Below are positions 67-49,096 of a stretch of 52,384 nt of DNA, piece after piece (position 1 is the stretch's first letter; each line of letters begins with the position of its first letter). Position numbers and translations under genes: made by a program. The stretch is taken from NCBI GenBank assembly GCA_030526225.1, contig JAUNDF010000005.1, forward strand, positions 1 through 52,384, in the 5' to 3' direction. Under the pieces are notes generated by a model. The model had not been told where the DNA came from. It made no database searches and saw only the letters and a list, made by a program, of their open reading frames with translations. This stretch comes from Clostridia bacterium (GTDB lineage Bacteria; Bacillota; Clostridia; Christensenellales; Aristaeellaceae).

Positions 67-773
67 GCGTGTATCAGCAAAATGAGCCCTTCTTCATGAT
101 GAAGGGCATCAACAAATTCTACCAGATGGGCGAGGAACAGGCGCATATCCTCAAGGATGTGAACCTCACCATCGAGCGGGGTGAGTTTCTGTCTATCCTC
201 GGCCCCTCCGGCAGCGGCAAATCCACGCTGATGAACATCATCGGCTGTCTGGATGTGGCCACCTCCGGCGAGTATGTGCTCAGCGGTCAGTCCGTTGAGG
301 GCATGTCGGAAAAGGAGCTGGCGCGGCTGCGATCCAGGGAAATCGGCTTCATCTTCCAGAACCATCAGCTGCTTCCTCGGATGAATGCCATTAAGAACGT
401 GGAGCTGCCCCTGATTTATGCAGGGCTCACGCCCCATGAGCGCCACCACCGTGCCAAGGAAATGCTGGAGCGGGTGGGCCTTGCGGACAGAATGCACCAC
501 TATCCCAATCAGCTTTCCGGCGGCCAGTGCCAGCGTGTGGCCATCGCCCGTGCTTTGGCGGGCAGCCCTTCCATCCTTCTGGCCGATGAGCCCACCGGCG
601 CACTGGACCAAAAGACCGGCAAGCAGGTGATGGAGCTGTTCCGGGAGCTGAACAGCGAGGGCAAAACCATCATCATGATTACCCATGATATGAACATTGC
701 CGCCAACGCCCGCCGCATTGTCCGCATCATTGACGGCGTTTTGTCGGAAGGAGGCAGCGTGACCGATGCTTAA
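63..773 (+). CDS. MacB/LolD-type ABC transporter ATPase
   Basis: 236 residues, the usual size of a stand-alone MacB/LolD-class nucleotide-binding domain. Walker A GPSGSGKST starts near residue 47. The signature LSGGQCQRVAIARAL, Walker B ILLADEPTGALD and the H-loop ITHD follow in order. It should power the permease encoded directly downstream, whose ATG at 766 lies inside the last codons of this gene (8-base overlap). The GTG at 63 overlaps the upstream stop; ATG codons at 96 and 99 are possible alternative starts. The substrate cannot be told from sequence; the family exports peptides, lipids or drugs. Confidence 0.93.
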   Translation: MSVYQQNEPFFMMKGINKFYQMGEEQAHILKDVNLTIERGEFLSILGPSGSGKSTLMNIIGCLDVATSGEYVLSGQSVEGMSEKELARLRSREIGFIFQNHQLLPRMNAIKNVELPLIYAGLTPHERHHRAKEMLERVGLADRMHHYPNQLSGGQCQRVAIARALAGSPSILLADEPTGALDQKTGKQVMELFRELNSEGKTIIMITHDMNIAANARRIVRIIDGVLSEGGSVTDA

Positions 774-1977
774 AAAATTTCGCGGCTTCCTGACCATGCT
801 TTGGGAATGCTTCACCATGTCGGTGCGCAACATCTGGTCCAACAAGGTGCGCAGCGCACTGACCATTCTGGGCATTTTCATTGGTGTTACGGCGGTCATC
901 GCACTGATTACCACCATGAGCGGCTTTTCAGGCTCCATCACCTCCAGCTTTGCCGGCATGGGCGCGGGCACGCTGACCGTTTCCGTCACCGGCAACGAGC
1001 TGAAGACGGGCCTTCAGCCATAGGACCTGAAAACGCTTTCCGCTCTTGATGAGGTGAAGGGCGTTGTGCCCTCCATTACCCTGCGGACCCGCGTTTCCCG
1101 GGGCGGCGAATACGATACCGGCATCATCGTTTCCGGCAAGAACGGCTACTACTTCCACGCCAATGACGATCAGGTGGCAAGAGGACGCAGACTCAGCGAA
1201 ATCGATGATGACAACCGCACCTTCACCTGCCTGATTACCAAGGAGCTGATGGAGCAGTTCTTCTGGGGCGAGGACCCGCTGGGGCAGAACATGTTTATCA
1301 ACGGCATGCCCTTTACGGTGGTGGGCATCATCAGCGATGAAGGCTCCACCAGCGTAGCGGATATGCTGGGCGGCACCCCCGACATCCTGATTCCCTACAC
1401 CACCGCCATGAAGCTCAACAGTGCCAGCGAGGTTACCTCCTGCACCGTATACCTGACGGACGGCGTCACCAATGACGAGGCAAAAACGGCGCTGGAAAAC
1501 ACGCTGGATGCCATGTTCTCCTTTGAGGATGACGTGTACACCATCACCGACATGTCCGCCATTGAAGACGTAATGAATGATATGCTGGGCATGGTTTCCA
1601 CCCTGCTGGCCGGTATCGCTTCCATTGCCCTGATTGTCGGCGGCATCGGCATTATGAACATGATGCTCACCACCGTTACCGAGCGCACCACAGAAATCGG
1701 CCTGAAGAAGGCCATCGGTGCCATGCCGTGGCATATTCAGACCCAGTTCCTGGTGGAAAGCGTGCTGCTGAGTGTCATCGGCGGCATACTGGGCGTGATA
1801 TTCGGCCTGATGCTCAGTCTGATTCTGTGCAACGCCATCGGCGCGGAATTTGTGGTCAATTACGGAGCCATTGCGCTGGGTGTCGGCTTCTCGGCCGCTG
1901 TGGGCATCATCTTCGGCTGGGCCCCTGCACGAAAGGCAAGCAGGCTGAACCCCATCGATGCCTTGCGTTCTGTGTAA
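766..1977 (+). CDS. MacB-type ABC permease (FtsX-like) with one in-frame TAG
   Basis: Inner-membrane permease partner of the preceding ATPase, about 403 residues if TAG is read. A transmembrane helix near residues 25-45 is followed by a large extracytoplasmic MacB-PCD domain and three C-terminal helices of the FtsX domain (GGIGIMNMMLTTVTERTTE, then ARKASRLNPIDAL). Codon 86 (1021-1023) is TAG. The frame continues without a break, and the context GLQP-TAG-DLKTLSALDEV matches the family pattern in which a polar residue, often Glu or Gln, precedes an Asp-Leu helix start. The upstream fragment alone would be a useless single-helix stub. The true stop is TAA. Confidence 0.9.
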
Positions 1978-7096: not shown

Positions 7097-8040
7097 CGGA
7101 TATTCTGACCATCGGCGCTCTGCCTGTGACCGCTTTCGGTCTCGGCTGCGGCTTGGCAGGGCTGGCGGCACTGGCACTGACCGCACTGCTGGCACTGCGC
7201 GTGTGCCGCGTCAGCATGGATGCCTTTGCCCGCTTTGCACCGCTTTCGGTGGTGCTGGCCTTTGTCATGGGCAGACTGCTGTTCGTGATGGGTACCCCTG
7301 CCATGATGACAAACCCTGTGCGCATCATCCGCTTTTGGGAGGGCGGCTATTCCATCATCGGTGCGGCCATCGGCTTTTTGCTGGCGGCGTGGCTGACGGA
7401 AAAGCTGTGCGGCGAAAAGCATCACGGCCTTGTCAGCAGCGCATCGCTGGCGATACTGCCCGCAATTGCTATCCTTCGGCTCTTTGAGGGGATGATTTCC
7501 ATCGGCCGCGGCCGGGAGATTGTCCATCCTGCCTTCAAATTCCTCGGTGTTACGGATGCGGCAACGGGGACGCTGGTGCATCCTGTGTACCGGTATGAGT
7601 TCGTCTTTGCACTGGTTCTGTTTGCGGTGTTCCTGTATATCCTGCTTCGCCACAGCAGGGAAGAGGCAGGCCGCGCCGATTTCGCTCTGTCCATCCTGAC
7701 GGTCTTTTCCGCCGGACAGATGGTGCTGGAAAACATGAAGAACGACCTGCACATGGTCATCAGCTTTGTGCCCATCCAGCTGGCGGCAGAGCTTTTCATG
7801 TTCCTGCTTCCGCTGATTGTTTGGCTGGTGAAGGTGCAAAAGGGCAGTCATCCCATGAAAAAAAGCCGGATGGCAATCATCTGGCTTGTATTGGCCGCCT
7901 GCATTGGCCTGTTTGTGTTCATGGCCTTCCGCACCGACCGCGGGGCATATAAGATTGTGTATTACATTGTCACGATGCTGTGCGTGTCCGTGATGACCCT
8001 TGTCAATATGACCCTGTGCCGTCTCAGCCGTCAGGGCTGA
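7093..8040 (+). CDS. Lgt-like polytopic membrane protein, divergent
   Basis: 315 residues, about 8-9 predicted membrane helices. The arrangement resembles prolipoprotein diacylglyceryl transferase: FVMGRLLFV, then RFWEGGYSIIGAAIG where true Lgt has a GGLSFHGG-like motif, then AILRLFEGMISIGRG, and finally VHPVYRYEFVF. The His of the Lgt GG-x-S-x-H motif and the usual GRxGNFxNxE box are not present as such. I read it as an Lgt paralogue rather than the housekeeping enzyme. It is translationally coupled to the preceding gene and runs 10 bases into the convergent GNAT gene. Confidence 0.65.
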   Translation: MTDILTIGALPVTAFGLGCGLAGLAALALTALLALRVCRVSMDAFARFAPLSVVLAFVMGRLLFVMGTPAMMTNPVRIIRFWEGGYSIIGAAIGFLLAAWLTEKLCGEKHHGLVSSASLAILPAIAILRLFEGMISIGRGREIVHPAFKFLGVTDAATGTLVHPVYRYEFVFALVLFAVFLYILLRHSREEAGRADFALSILTVFSAGQMVLENMKNDLHMVISFVPIQLAAELFMFLLPLIVWLVKVQKGSHPMKKSRMAIIWLVLAACIGLFVFMAFRTDRGAYKIVYYIVTMLCVSVMTLVNMTLCRLSRQG

Positions 8041-8480
8041 CGGTTGGGGCAGTTCTTGCTGCAGCTCTTGCAGGTATCAAGGCACAAATCCTCACCCATC
8101 AAAAACATGGGCTGCATGCCGCCCACTTGTTCGCCCATGGGACGGAAGCCCAGCCGGGCAAAGAAGCCGGTGAGCTGCGCCGGAGCAATCAGCCTGATTT
8201 CTCTGGCGGCGTGGGTTTCAGCCTTGAACAGAAGCAGCCGCAGCGTCAAATCACCCAGCTTGCGGCCGCGCAGCTGCTAAAGAACGCCGATATCGCCGAT
8301 GTAAAACGCGCCGTCCTGCCACCAGATTCTGCCGGTGGCGGCGGGCATGCCCTCAAACCAGACAAGCACATTCCAGCTGGATGCATCAAGGGCATCGGCA
8401 CCCCGGCCGAACACACTTTCACGGATGGCCATGGCCTCGGCGGCCTCGGTACCCGGGGCAAACCATTTTCCTTCAACCAT
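8031..8480 (-). CDS. GNAT-family N-acetyltransferase with an in-frame TAG and Cys-rich tail
   Basis: 149 residues when TAG is read as an amino acid. The GNAT signature is split by the TAG (8277-8279, codon 68): DIGVL-TAG-QLRGRKLGDLTLRLLL, where the acetyl-CoA loop is QLRGRKLG. In related proteins the residue after VL is variable (P, K, E or Q). Earlier parts include WNVLVWFEGMPAATG. The C-terminus ends in CLDTCKSCSKNCPN, a five-Cys cluster that could bind metal and is odd for this family. The start at 8480 has a GGAAAGG site upstream. The substrate is unknown. Confidence 0.8.
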
Positions 8481-8534
8481 ATTGCAGCAACCTTTCCATC
8501 AACAAGATATATCATCAGATAGGGAGTGAAATCT

Positions 8535-35693: not shown

Positions 35694-35785
35694 ATTGCCT
35701 GCTTTATCGGGAAGATTTCTTCGTGCCATCTTCATCCGGATGTGGTATAATTATCGTAGTGTTTTTAGAAAGGGGAGGATATCGC

Positions 35786-38092
35786 ATGACAAACTGCAGC
35801 GTGTCGGTTCGGATGCTGGTGGAGTTTTCCATCCACGGCGGTGATATTCTCCCCGGCGGCAGCATCAAGGATATGCAGGATGGCATGCTCGGTCATAAGG
35901 CGCGGCAAAAGCTGCTGGGTGATGGCTGGGAAAGCGAAGTCTCCCTGACCCTTGATTTGCCGGAAGCGGACGGCATTGCACTCCGTGTCCTTGGCCGCAT
36001 GGACGCTTTCCATGATGGCGAGCTGCCTGTGATTGAGGAAATCAAGGTCAAAAAGGGCAGGGGAGAAATCACACTGGACCCTGCCCACCGGGCGCAGGCT
36101 GTGTGCTACGGACATATGCTCTGCACACAGGAACACATTCCGCAGGTGATGATTCGCATTGCCTATGTCTCTGTTGCCGGCACAATCCTTGAGCTGTTTG
36201 AGGAGATTCTTTCTGCATAGCAATGCGCGGCAGAATTTGATGCACTGGTACAGGCATATATGCGCCGTCTGGTGCTGATTGACCGTCACCATACCCTGCG
36301 GGATGAAACCTTGCTGCACCTTCAATTCCCTTTCCCGGAATACCGTCAGGGACAGCGTGAAATGGCGGCACAGGTGTACACGGCCATTAAGCGGCAGAAA
36401 AGACTGTTTGCGTCACTGCCCACCGGTACAGGCAAGTCTGTGGCTACGCTGTTTCCGGCAGTCAAGGCGCTTGGTACGGGATTGACGGAGCAAATCTATT
36501 ATCTGACAGCTCGTACAACCCAGCGTCAGGGTCCGCTTTAGGCACTGCGGATGATGCGCCTTCAGCCCCTGAAGCTGTGGACACTGGTGCTGGATGCCAA
36601 GGACCGTCAATGCCCTGCGAAGACCATGTGCCATCCTGACTATTGTCCAAGGGCCAAGGGACATTTCTTTCGGGATGGTGCCGCCATCGAAGAAATGATG
36701 CAGCAGGACCATTGGTCGCCCGAAGCCATCCGTGAAACGGCTGACAAGCATGATTTGTGTCCCTTTGAATTCAGCCTTTCCCTGGCGGAAATCGCCGATG
36801 TGACCATTTGTGACTACAATTATGCCTTTGATCCTGCGGTGCATATTCAGCGCATTTTTAATCGCCCCGGTGAAGTGACACTGCTTGTGGACGAAGCCCA
36901 TAATCTCCCCGACAGAGCCCGCGATATGCTCAGCGGCCATGTGGACGGAAGAAAGATTCGCAAGCTGCGCACCGCAGCAGGGAAACTGCTGGGCCGAAGC
37001 CATGACCTGTACAAAAGCATGACCCGCATGCTCAATGCCATTGTAGATTTGCCCATAGAAGATGGCGCTGCCGAAGGCTGTTTGAGTGACCTCCCGCAGA
37101 GCATTGACCGTGCCGTACAATAGCTGGCAGATGCGCTGGCACAGGCCCGCTATGAGCACATCCAGTGGGGCGAGGAAAAAGAGCTGGTGACGGAAATCAC
37201 CTACGATGTCTTCTCTTTTCTTCGCGCCAGACGGCGGGAAACACGGGACTATGTCTTCATTTGGGAAGGGCGGGACAGGAAGACAAGGCGCATTACCGCC
37301 TTTGCGCCCGATGTATCCGACTTTCTGCACGATACCACCGCGCCCATGAACGGCGTGGTCTGCTTTTCAGCCACCATGCACCCCATTGATGACATGAAGA
37401 TGCTCATCGGCGCAGATGAGGATGATGCCTGCTTCTCCATGCCATCACCTTTCCCGCCCGAGAATCTGCTGGTACTGCAGAAAAACATCAACACGCGATA
37501 TCAGCAGAGGGATGCCACTTTGCCGCAGATTGCCGACTGCATCCGTCAGCTGACGGAAAGCCATCCGGGCAAATACATGGTCTTTTTCCCCAGCTTTGCG
37601 TACATGGAAAAGGTGACGGAATTGCTGGATGAGGATACATACATGATGCAGCAGCGTTCCATGTCCTTATCCCAGCGGGAAGAATTTCTCGCGCGTTTTC
37701 TGCATGAGTCATCATAGGTGTTGGGGCTGTGTGTGCTGGGCGGCGTGTTTTCCGAAGGCATCGACCTGCCAGGAGATGCGCTGGACGGTGTCATCATCGT
37801 CGGTGTCGGACTGCCGCAGGTGGGCATCTTCCGCGAAGTATTGCGATAGGTACTGGAAAAGAAGTTCGGTCAGGGCTTCCTGTACGCCTACATGATTCCG
37901 GGGATGCAGAAGGTGGCACAGGCGGTGGGCCGCGTCATCCGCACCGAAACGGACAGAGGCGTTGCATTGCTGCTGGATGACCGCTATCCCTACGCATCCT
38001 ACCGCAAGCTGATGCCAACCCACTGGCAGGTCCAGCACGGAAATATCATAGAAGCCCTGAAGGAATTCTGGCACGAAAAAGAAACGCCGTAA
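35786..38092 (+). CDS. XPD/DinG-like Fe-S helicase with N-terminal PD-(D/E)XK domain; five in-frame TAG codons
   Basis: 768 residues if TAG is sense. N-terminal Cas4/RecB-like nuclease motifs are GRMD (Asp 73), EEIKVK (Glu 84-85, Lys 87) and HRAQAVCYG. Helicase motifs are PTGTGKS (212-218), four Cys likely binding 4Fe-4S (276, 282, 287, 325), VDEAH (368-372), FSATMHP, FSEGIDLPGD, GVGLPQ and VGRVIRTETDRG. TAG codons are 145, 252, 446, 644 and 688 (36218, 36539, 37121, 37715, 37847). All motifs lie in one frame with no TAA, TGA or shift until 38090. The ATG has GAAAGGGGAGG upstream. It unwinds DNA, probably in repair or recombination; it is followed by guanine deaminase and an alkyl-DNA repair gene. 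Confidence 0.9.
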
Positions 38093-38106
38093 TGCAGGAG
38101 GAAAGC

Positions 38107-39372
38107 ATGAATACAATTGTACTCAAGGGAACCTTTGTGGATGCACCCAAGGCAGGGAGTCTGCGGATTCGTGATGGCTATGCCATCTGCCGTGACGGCG
38201 TGTTTTGCGGATTTGAGCCGCAGCTGCCCGAGGGAACCGCGCCGGAGCAGGTGCAGGACTACACCGGCTGCCTGATTACCCCCGGCTTGGTGGATTTGCA
38301 TCTGCATGCGCCCCAATACAGCTACGCCGGTACGGCCATGGATGTTCAGCTGCTGGAGTGGCTGGACCAGTACACCTTCCCGGAGGAGGCAAGGTTTGCC
38401 GATTTGGAATACGCCAAAACCGCGTATGCGTATTTCGTGCGGGACCTTGTCAACAGCCCCACCACAAGGGCCTGCGTCTTTGCCACCATCCACACCGATG
38501 CAACACTGGAGCTGATGCGCCAGCTGCAGCAGGCAGGGCTGCCCGGCTATGTGGGCAAGCTGAACATGGACAGAAACTGCCCCGTTTATTATCGTGAAGC
38601 ATCCGTGGCAGATGGCGTGCGCGAAACGCGACGGTGGCTGGAGCAAACCGCGGCGGGTCAATTTGCTCCTGTCATGCCCATGATTACGCCGCGCTTTACG
38701 CCCACCATTACCGATGCGTATATGGCGTAGCTTGGCAAGCTGGCCAGGGAATATGGCGTGCCTGCCCAGAGCCATCTCAATGAAAACCTGAGCGAAATCG
38801 AATGGGTGAAGGCACTCTGCCCCGACAAACGGGACTACTGCGACACCTACGATGCCTACGGTCTGCTGGGTGATGTCCCCACCGTCATGGCCCATTGCAT
38901 TTACGGAACAGAGCGGGAAAAACAGCTCCTGAAGGACAAGCGGGTGATGATTGCCCATTGCCCCACCAGCAACAGCAACGTCATTGCCGGTCTTTGTCCT
39001 GCGGCAGCGTATCTCCGCGGCGGATGGGAAATCGGCCTCGGCAGCGATGTGGCAGGCGGTCACACGCTGAATCTGTTCGAGGTGATGGTATATACCGTTC
39101 AGGTGAGCAAAATGAAATGGATGCTTGAGGGGCAGAAAGACCATCCGCTGTCCATGGCGGAGGCATTCTATATGGCCACGGCAGGCGGCGGACGCTTCTT
39201 TGGCAAAGTCGGTTTGTTTGAGCCGGGTTATGCCTTTGATGCGCTGGTGCTGGATGAAAGCAAGCTGGCAAGTCCCCGCAGCTTTAATCCTGCCGAGCGG
39301 CTGGAGCGCTATGCCTATCAGGGGAACGGTCTGCTGAAGGCCAAGTATGTGGACGGACGCAGAATGCTGTAA
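38107..39372 (+). CDS. guaD: Guanine deaminase with one in-frame TAG
   Basis: 421 residues, normal length. Metal motif VDLHLHAPQYSYAG, substrate-loop EEARF, then ITPRFTPTITDAYMA-TAG-LGKLAREYGV (TAG codon 208, 38728-38730), QSHLNENLSEIEWV, HCIYGTERE, HCPTSNSNV and LGSDVAGGHTLN. All ligands of the amidohydrolase zinc site are present on both sides of the TAG, so neither half would work alone. It converts guanine to xanthine. The ATG at 38107 has GCAGGAGG upstream; it follows the helicase gene closely and likely shares its transcript. Confidence 0.93.
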
Positions 39373-44584: not shown

Positions 44585-46093
44585 TTATGCCTCCTCCCGG
44601 GATGCGGTCAGGGTCTTTTCCATGCTGGCCAGCAGCTGCTGAATCCGGCTCAGCTCCTTCACGGCATCACCGCTGGTGCCGGATTTGGGCAGGGCTTCAA
44701 TCTGCCGGGAAAGCTCGGCCATCATATCGTTGACCGATATATGGAAGGTGCCAAGGGCGCGGGAGAAGCCATCCACAATGCTGGAAACAAAGTACTGATA
44801 GCTTCCGGCCAGCCGGTCGGTGGATTGGGCGATGCTGTCGCTTGTCCTGGCCAGCTTGCCTACCGCGGCCTGATCTGCCTGATACATCTTGTCCATGCTG
44901 GTGTTGACAGCGGTGCGGAAGTCATCCATGGATTTGGTCAGCAGGATATGATAATCCTACAGAGAGGCCAGTGCGGCATGCTGATTGGCGGCGGCATCGT
45001 TCAGCCTTGTCAGCATATCGGCGGCGGATGCTTCAAACTGGGCATCGTGCTTTCGTGCTTCATTGATGCCGGCCACATACTGCTCAAACTGGGTCGTGAT
45101 GCTGCCGGAGATGCTCCGCAGCTCCTGTGCCTGGGTCAGGATGGTATCGGCGTTGGTCAGGCTCTGCTGAATTTTGTCAAGGGCATCGCGCTGGTTGCGG
45201 TTCACCTCGGTAAGCGTTTGCCCCAGTGCAAGGAACTGCTTGTTCAGGGACTGGTTCATCTGCTCCACAAAGCTGGTGACAATACGGCCCACGCCCTCTA
45301 CCTGTGCCTTGGTGGAAGCCACAAGGAATTCATCCATGGAGCGGGCCACAGGGGACAGGGCGCGGCTGACAGCCACCTCAATGCTGCCGGCCATCTGGGA
45401 GGCAAGGCCATCGGTGGCATTAAAGAGCATGTGGTTGCGGTCCTGATTCTGGCAAATCAGCTGCACGTCATTGTCCAGCGGGCGCTGCATGGCCAGCGAG
45501 GTAAAGGCCTCCACAAAGCGGTCAATGGCGTGATAGCTGGAGCCCTGCGAAATCTTGCAGGACATGTTGAACAGCAGAGAGCAGCTGATGCCCAGCACAG
45601 ATGTACCGAAGGCACCCTTCATACCGTCCAGCAGGACGGGAATGCCCTTCATCAGCGCTTCCGCATCAGACATGTTCAGCCCGGTCAGACCGCGCATCAG
45701 GCCGATAAAGGTGCCGAGAATGCCGAGGCTGGTCAAAAGGCTGGGAATCATCTCTGCCAGCTGGGCATTGCCCGGTCCGTGGGTTACGGTATCGTCATTG
45801 ATGTAGTCCTCCACGTTGCAGGGGAGGCCGCGGCGGTCCAGCTGCTCGGCATTTTGCAGAAAGCGCAGCCAGCTTCCCTTCAGCCGATTGCCCATAAAGC
45901 GCGTTTCCTGCCATACAGGCTTGCCGCCGGAGCGGTCATCCTCCTGCAGCTTCTTTACCGCTCTTTTCAGGGCGTGGGTAGTGCCCCAAAGGGGACAAAG
46001 GCATTTGAACACGCCAATGACAGTCACGATGATAATGGCGGCATAGATGATATAATCAGCCCAGTTGGGCAAAATTGCCTGAATGGTTTTCAT
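44585..46093 (-). CDS. ZorA/MotA/ExbB-like proton channel protein with one in-frame TAG
   Basis: 502 residues when TAG (44957-44959, codon 379) is read. TM1 lies near 14-33. The ExbB-type core is PSLLTSLGILGTFIGLMRGL (117-136) and GTSVLGISCSLLFNM (163-177). A cytoplasmic helical tail of over 300 residues follows, as in ZorA. The TAG falls in that tail (AALASL-TAG-DYHILLT), which continues 123 residues with strong helical character. The next gene encodes the MotB/ZorB partner. An ACGGAGG site precedes the ATG. It likely uses ion flow to drive a membrane motor. No ZorC or ZorD-like effector genes are beside it. Confidence 0.85.
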
Positions 46094-46191
46094 GGGACAA
46101 CCTCCGTCAAGGGATGATATTGATAATTCCAGTATAGCTTTCCCGCGGGCGTTTGTCTACATCATCAGGCACTTGCGGCAACTTTTACAAA

Positions 46192-46226
46192 TAAAACAGC
46201 CGCCGGATTGTCTCCGACGGCTGAAG
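46192..46226 (-). terminator. Terminator of the LCP gene
   Basis: On the minus strand CAGCCG.CGG pairs with CCG.CGGCTG around a short loop, followed by TTTTATTT. Confidence 0.7.
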
Positions 46227-46243
46227 GGGAAGCGCCATGCCAA

Positions 46244-48945: not shown

Positions 48946-48963
48946 ATACACGAAAATTGCATC

Positions 48964-49047
48964 TACCGCCAGGGGTGCCCGTTTCGGGCTGAGAGGATAT
49001 CCGACCCTTGGAACCTGTGTAGGTAATCCTACCGTAGGGAGGCGGAC
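48964..49047 (+). promoter_or_regulatory. TPP riboswitch (thi box)
   Basis: P1 pairs CCGCC (48966-48970) with GGCGG (49041-49045). The two core stretches are AGGGGTGCCC, then GGGCTGAGA, and ACCCTTGGAACCTG with the GTAGGGA end. It controls thiT, likely by the terminator 50 bases downstream; TPP should lower expression. Confidence 0.96.
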
Positions 49048-49096
49048 AGCAGCTGCTTTCGGGCATCTGCGACTGGACAAAATGTCCATCTGCTTT

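Follow-up and report, generated by a model that had tools for sequence, protein, structure and literature searches.

The gene considered here contains five in-frame TAG codons, which raises the question of whether it is broken or is a working gene in which UAG is read as an amino acid and, if so, which amino acid. The window, i.e., the whole stretch of 52,384 nt that was analyzed, corresponds to contig C88 of a MAG from an uncultured bacterium of gut type; the MAG has 136 contigs totaling 2.19 Mb and is 80% complete. Approximately 647 kb of this genome was sampled in stretches. The evidence favors a reassignment of UAG from stop to glutamate in this genome, with an estimated probability of about 0.9. 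This assignment comes from sequence comparison in a single incomplete MAG, with no proteomics.

The frame on the forward strand extends without a frameshift from an ATG to a terminal TAA, and its interior has exactly five TAG codons but neither TAA nor TGA (Table 1). This agrees with an earlier reading made from the sequence only, which described five TAGs within one unshifted frame of 768 codons. An in-frame GTG is also present upstream, at position 35723; the ATG at 35786 fits as the start because homology begins at approximately residue 5. The same sequence-only reading considered the nuclease and helicase motifs to be intact, and an alignment of 18 sequences shows them to be invariant. These are the nuclease residues E51, R71, D73, E85, K87 and Q104, and in the helicase portion the Walker A motif, the Fe-S cysteines 276, 282, 287 and 325, the DEAH box and motif VI. 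The protein matches the Pfam domain Helicase_C_2 (PF13307) with 140 bits. Helicases of the DinG/YoaA/Rad3 type with an Fe-S cluster and an N-terminal RecB-type nuclease are common in Clostridia. Their domain order, Fe-S cysteines, DEAH box and motif VI are the same as those found here, and the five TAG codons are the only difference.

Table 1. Positions of the nuclease-helicase gene, its in-frame TAG codons and other TAG-containing frames in the window
Feature	Position	Strand	Remarks
Nuclease-helicase gene	35786..38092	+	N-terminal RecB-type PD-(D/E)XK nuclease and DinG/Rad3-type Fe-S helicase; 768 aa; five TAG; TAA stop
In-frame TAG, residue 145	36218..36220	+	E/E/W in nearest relatives
In-frame TAG, residue 252	36539..36541	+	E in nearest relatives; column mainly E/D
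In-frame TAG, residue 446	37121..37123	+	E in nearest relatives
In-frame TAG, residue 644 (ESS-TAG-VLGLCVLGG)	37715..37717	+	P in nearest relatives; column S/T/P
In-frame TAG, residue 688 (REVLR-TAG-VLEKKFG)	37847..37849	+	D/A in nearest relatives; column mainly D/E
Amidohydrolase gene, 426 aa, in-frame TAG at 38728	38092..39372	+	Pfam Glu over Gln by 0.7–1.1 bits
MacB/FtsX-type ABC permease gene, in-frame TAG at 1021	766..1977	+	D in relative
GNAT acetyltransferase frame, in-frame TAG at 8277–8279	8034..8498	-	P in relative
Frame with weak MotA/ExbB similarity, internal TAG at 44957–44959	44588..46243	-	

The window also has a TPP riboswitch at positions 48961–49057 on the forward strand, scoring 69.8 bits where the gathering score is 54.3.

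Relatives of the helicase are found in many named Clostridia genomes, mostly those of uncultured Clostridia and several from ruminant guts, the nearest with 61% identity. Among 80 such relatives, 78 have no internal stop codon, one has a single TAG and one a single TAA/TGA. A codon-by-codon comparison with five relatives shows 0.45–0.68 differences per third position in the six segments between the TAGs, compared with 0.07–0.44 at first and second positions. The third-position excess is present in all six segments, and therefore the frame has evolved as a protein through to its end. This bears directly on the possibility that the helicase is a pseudogene, or that its TAGs are errors of sequencing or assembly. 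Two properties are compatible with that explanation: relatives are present in only 27 of 60 related genomes, and the gene has a TAG density (five in 768 codons) roughly tenfold that of the genome on average (119 in 186,320 codons). However, neither TAA, TGA nor a frameshift accompanies the TAGs, all six segments evolve in a protein-like manner, and the same TAG-only pattern is present in essential genes on many contigs (GatB, MutL, DnaG and others), whereas random decay or G-to-T error would be expected to produce TAA and TGA as well. Decay or error is thus considered extremely improbable. The gene is an outlier in TAG density, not in kind, and the five-TAG helicase appears, from these comparisons, to be an ordinary working gene in a recoded code, intact rather than broken. 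Recoding, and not a pseudogene, was also what the sequence-only reading had proposed, and that proposal is supported both by this protein-like evolution and by the use of TAG in the rest of the genome.

As inferred from the sampled frames, UAG is a sense codon throughout the genome. Within 647 kb, 61 of 502 coding-like frames (186,320 codons) hold 68 internal TAGs that have coding signal on both sides, and these frames are spread over many contigs. They include genes for MutS, MutL, PhoH, DnaG (two TAGs), an RpoD-type sigma factor, RecD2, topoisomerase III and sensor kinases; the GatB gene likewise holds one internal TAG. The frequency of TAG is approximately 0.6–0.7 per 1000 codons, and TAG represents about 1% of the Glu codons (26 of ~2150 aligned). 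Standard annotation splits about one in eight coding frames here (61/502), and re-annotation is needed.

Proteins of a close relative in which RF1 is present (G060) were aligned to the DNA of this genome, which revealed 20 internal TAG and 9 internal TGA/TAA codons. On inspection, all 9 of the latter fall in upstream extensions or in gapped or poorly aligned stretches; in well-aligned genes TAG alone interrupts, never TAA or TGA. The first stop codon past the homologous C-termini is TAA in 73 cases, TGA in 49 and TAG in 2, and both TAG-terminated cases come from alignments at 33% identity. The power of this terminal-stop count is low, as G060 itself ends only 2 of 139 genes with TAG.

A separate observation concerns a 2138 bp contig of the same MAG (L260, G000:C28), which is AT-rich and very dense in in-frame TAGs (8 in 222 codons and 12 in 342 codons). 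It looks like a TAG-recoded phage that was binned with, or infects, this bacterium, and in which TAG could mean either Gln or Glu.

The sequence-only reading left the amino acid unnamed, and the comparisons presented here indicate glutamate. Residues of G060 opposite TAG were counted only in well-aligned columns, with antisense frames excluded. The 26 columns have Glu (8), Gln (5), Asp (3), Pro (2), Ala (2), Ser (2) and one each of His, Thr, Lys and Leu. With a likelihood model built from the genome's own sense codons, Glu ranks best, followed by Gln at -4.2 nats, Asp at -10.6, Ser at -19.9 and Lys at -20.1. When only alignments with at least 45% identity are considered, the columns are Glu 7, Asp 3, Gln 2, Pro 2 and single Ala, His and Lys residues.

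A second comparison is independent of G060. TAG was read either as Glu or as Gln and the resulting proteins were scored against Pfam, with omission of matches whose stretch excludes the TAG. The sum of Glu minus Gln is about +25 bits over about 26 comparisons. The largest terms are Nudix (+4.8 bits), GatB_N (+3.9), His_kinase (+3.5), AAA_19 of RecD2 (+2.2) and BPD_transp_1 of a permease (+2.0), followed by HTH_5 of ArsR (+1.7), MutL (+1.6), Glycos_transf_1 and SBP_bac_1 (+1.1 each) and HATPase_c (+1.0). Smaller ones are GNAT (+0.8 and +0.5), TetR_N (+0.8), Amidohydro_1 (+0.7), MacB_PCD and Topoisom_bac (+0.6 each), Helicase_C_2 (+0.3) and MutS_V, DNAG_N and SNF2 (+0.1 each). The TetR term is not purely a column effect, in that the matched stretch was lengthened. 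Terms that favor Gln are HlyD_2 (-1.1), Transglut_core (-0.8), 7TMR-HDED (-0.4), a HATPase_c (-0.2), Glyco_hydro_3_C (-0.2) and PhoH (-0.1). Five genes were re-tested with other residues, and both Asp and Lys score below Glu.

In GatB the TAG is at the Glu position of the motif IGL-E-VH, which is Glu in all four GatB structure sequences compared; when ten residues were tried there in Pfam, Glu came first and Asp next, 3.3 bits behind. In MutL it is at the Glu of HPxKxEVR, also Glu in all four MutL structure sequences compared, and in the Nudix protein it is at the second E of the REUxEE box, which is Glu in the CTP pyrophosphohydrolase sequence compared. TAG is found at conserved Glu positions of the sensor-kinase, ArsR, permease and RecD2 families as well. 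The helicase had been put forward as the best single test gene, with the suggestion that homologue residues be read in its five columns. Some of these columns do have Glu, or mainly Glu and Asp, but on alignment with relatives the five prove to be variable polar sites that barely separate Glu from Gln, and the gene does not have that role. Judged by the alignments, the GatB, MutL and Nudix genes are far more diagnostic of the meaning of UAG.

One rival reading is glutamine, i.e., NCBI code 15, with UAG read by a tRNA-Gln(CUA) or by a near-cognate tRNA-Gln(CUG) after loss of RF1. Gln is the commonest UAG reassignment elsewhere (PMC8629427, PMC9523058), and the Gln found in 5 of the 26 columns is above what is usual for a Glu codon. 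Three of these five alignments, however, are below 45% identity. Both the Pfam sum and the column likelihood lie toward Glu, TAG replaces an invariant or catalytic-box Glu in GatB, MutL and Nudix, and when 26 columns were drawn from CAG or from CAA codons the observed Glu preference was never reached (5000 trials each). A Gln reading is very unlikely on this evidence. An ambiguous UAG, read as both Glu and Gln, is equally unlikely. It could arise, e.g., from a tRNA-Gln-type CUA tRNA that receives Glu, which GatCAB then amidates only in part, and the mixed Glu/Gln columns and the presence of GatB are in its favor. However, GlnS is present beside GltX, so an indirect route to Gln is not required, and the Gln columns come mainly from low-identity alignments. 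The idea that Glu arises because GlnRS is missing and GatCAB is leaky is weakened by the same adjacency of GlnS and GltX. A GluQRS is present in addition to these two synthetases. As an observation apart from this question, GatB, the amidotransferase subunit involved in amidating Glu-tRNA-Gln or Asp-tRNA-Asn, itself has TAG at its invariant IGLE glutamate (L285, G000:C97, minus strand).

Pyrrolysine is inserted at UAG in some archaea and bacteria, and this precedent is the basis for considering it here. No PylS was found over the cut-off in this incomplete genome (best score 26.7 bits against 178), a tRNA-Pyl was not found in the genome, and the many scattered Glu-like TAG sites do not fit such a use. 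This reading has next to no support.

The decoding machinery for UAG as glutamate is inferred: RF1 would be lost, and GltX would charge a CUA tRNA with Glu. RF1 was not found in the 80% complete MAG, and neither was RF2. In the family, RF1 is above the cut-off in 267 of 300 genomes, and only three besides this MAG have no match at all. A true loss of RF1, with RF2 located in the unassembled part, makes the absence of both factors likelier, which is support and not proof. A CUA tRNA was not found in the MAG, itself 80% complete, with the Rfam tRNA model, with ARAGORN (including relaxed settings) or with a sequence pattern. Three pattern matches were rejected, one being inside tRNA-Arg(UCU) and none a CUA tRNA. 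A weak tRNA match at L072:472-541 (G000:C12) was also rejected; this fragment is tRNA-like but degraded, has CGC in the anticodon loop and lacks the 5' acceptor arm. The missing CUA tRNA counts little against recoding because tRNA-Tyr and tRNA-Ile(GAU) were not found in the MAG either.

In the mechanism proposed, RF1, which acts at UAA and UAG, would have been lost, and RF2 would end genes at UAA and UGA. UAG would be read by a tRNA with a CUA anticodon, the simplest candidate being a copy of tRNA-Glu(CUC) with one anticodon change that is charged by the resident GltX. The likely route would be codon capture, and once UAG means Glu, GAG-to-TAG changes at Glu sites would be synonymous. TAG is seldom the stop codon in relatives. 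The rarity in G060 implies that loss of RF1 cost little and that TAG was nearly free, as codon capture requires, and this avoidance agrees with the codon-capture prediction. No convincing internal TAG was found in stretches of 15 other genomes of the family, small samples that include several genomes without a found RF1, and the genus is represented by this single genome in the comparison set. The recoding looks recent and narrow, subject to this small sampling. The complete proposal is that, through loss of RF1 and with a CUA tRNA dedicated to this codon, UAG was recently reassigned to Glu in full, a change that may be confined to one genus, and that UAA and UGA remain stops; it is considered highly probable.

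A screen of more than 250,000 genomes in 2021 reported that UGA, with Gly or Trp as its new meaning, was the codon reassigned in all bacterial code changes then known; the screen itself added changes in arginine codons (PMC8629427). The same kinds of change, together with a new case of UGA as Trp, are discussed in a survey published in 2026 that covered 42,109 bacterial genomes (PMC13092985). No report of UAG as Glu in any bacterium was found in the open-access literature searched; subscription papers and preprints were outside the scope. UAG as Glu with UAA and UGA as stops is thus undescribed for any prokaryote in the literature searched, and priority is not established. Two questions become accessible to testing with this case. 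One is whether natural code change is driven by the loss of RF1, which permits such change in engineered E. coli. The other is why the amino acid would be Glu, since plain misreading by tRNA-Gln would lead one to expect Gln.

Known codes resemble this one in part. An uncultured ciliate reads UAG as Glu, and peritrich ciliates read UAR as Glu (PMC11687900), as does the trypanosomatid Blastocrithidia (PMC12153298). The ciliate and Blastocrithidia codes share the reading of UAG as Glu but are eukaryotic nuclear codes in which UAA has changed too, whereas the present genome is bacterial and keeps UAA and UGA as stops. Gut phages use code 15, with UAG as Gln (PMC9523058); there UAG is sense and UAA and UGA are still stops, as here, but the amino acid is Gln and the setting viral, in contrast to Glu in a cell chromosome. 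The UGA codes of Mycoplasmatales, Absconditabacteria/Gracilibacteria and endosymbionts, with Trp or Gly, are likewise genome-wide changes from stop to sense, usually with one release factor lost (PMC8629427). Those recodings involve UGA and RF2, whereas here UAG and, by inference, RF1 are involved, and the UGA-recoded genomes cited are mostly small, whereas this genome has 57% GC and is larger than 2 Mb.
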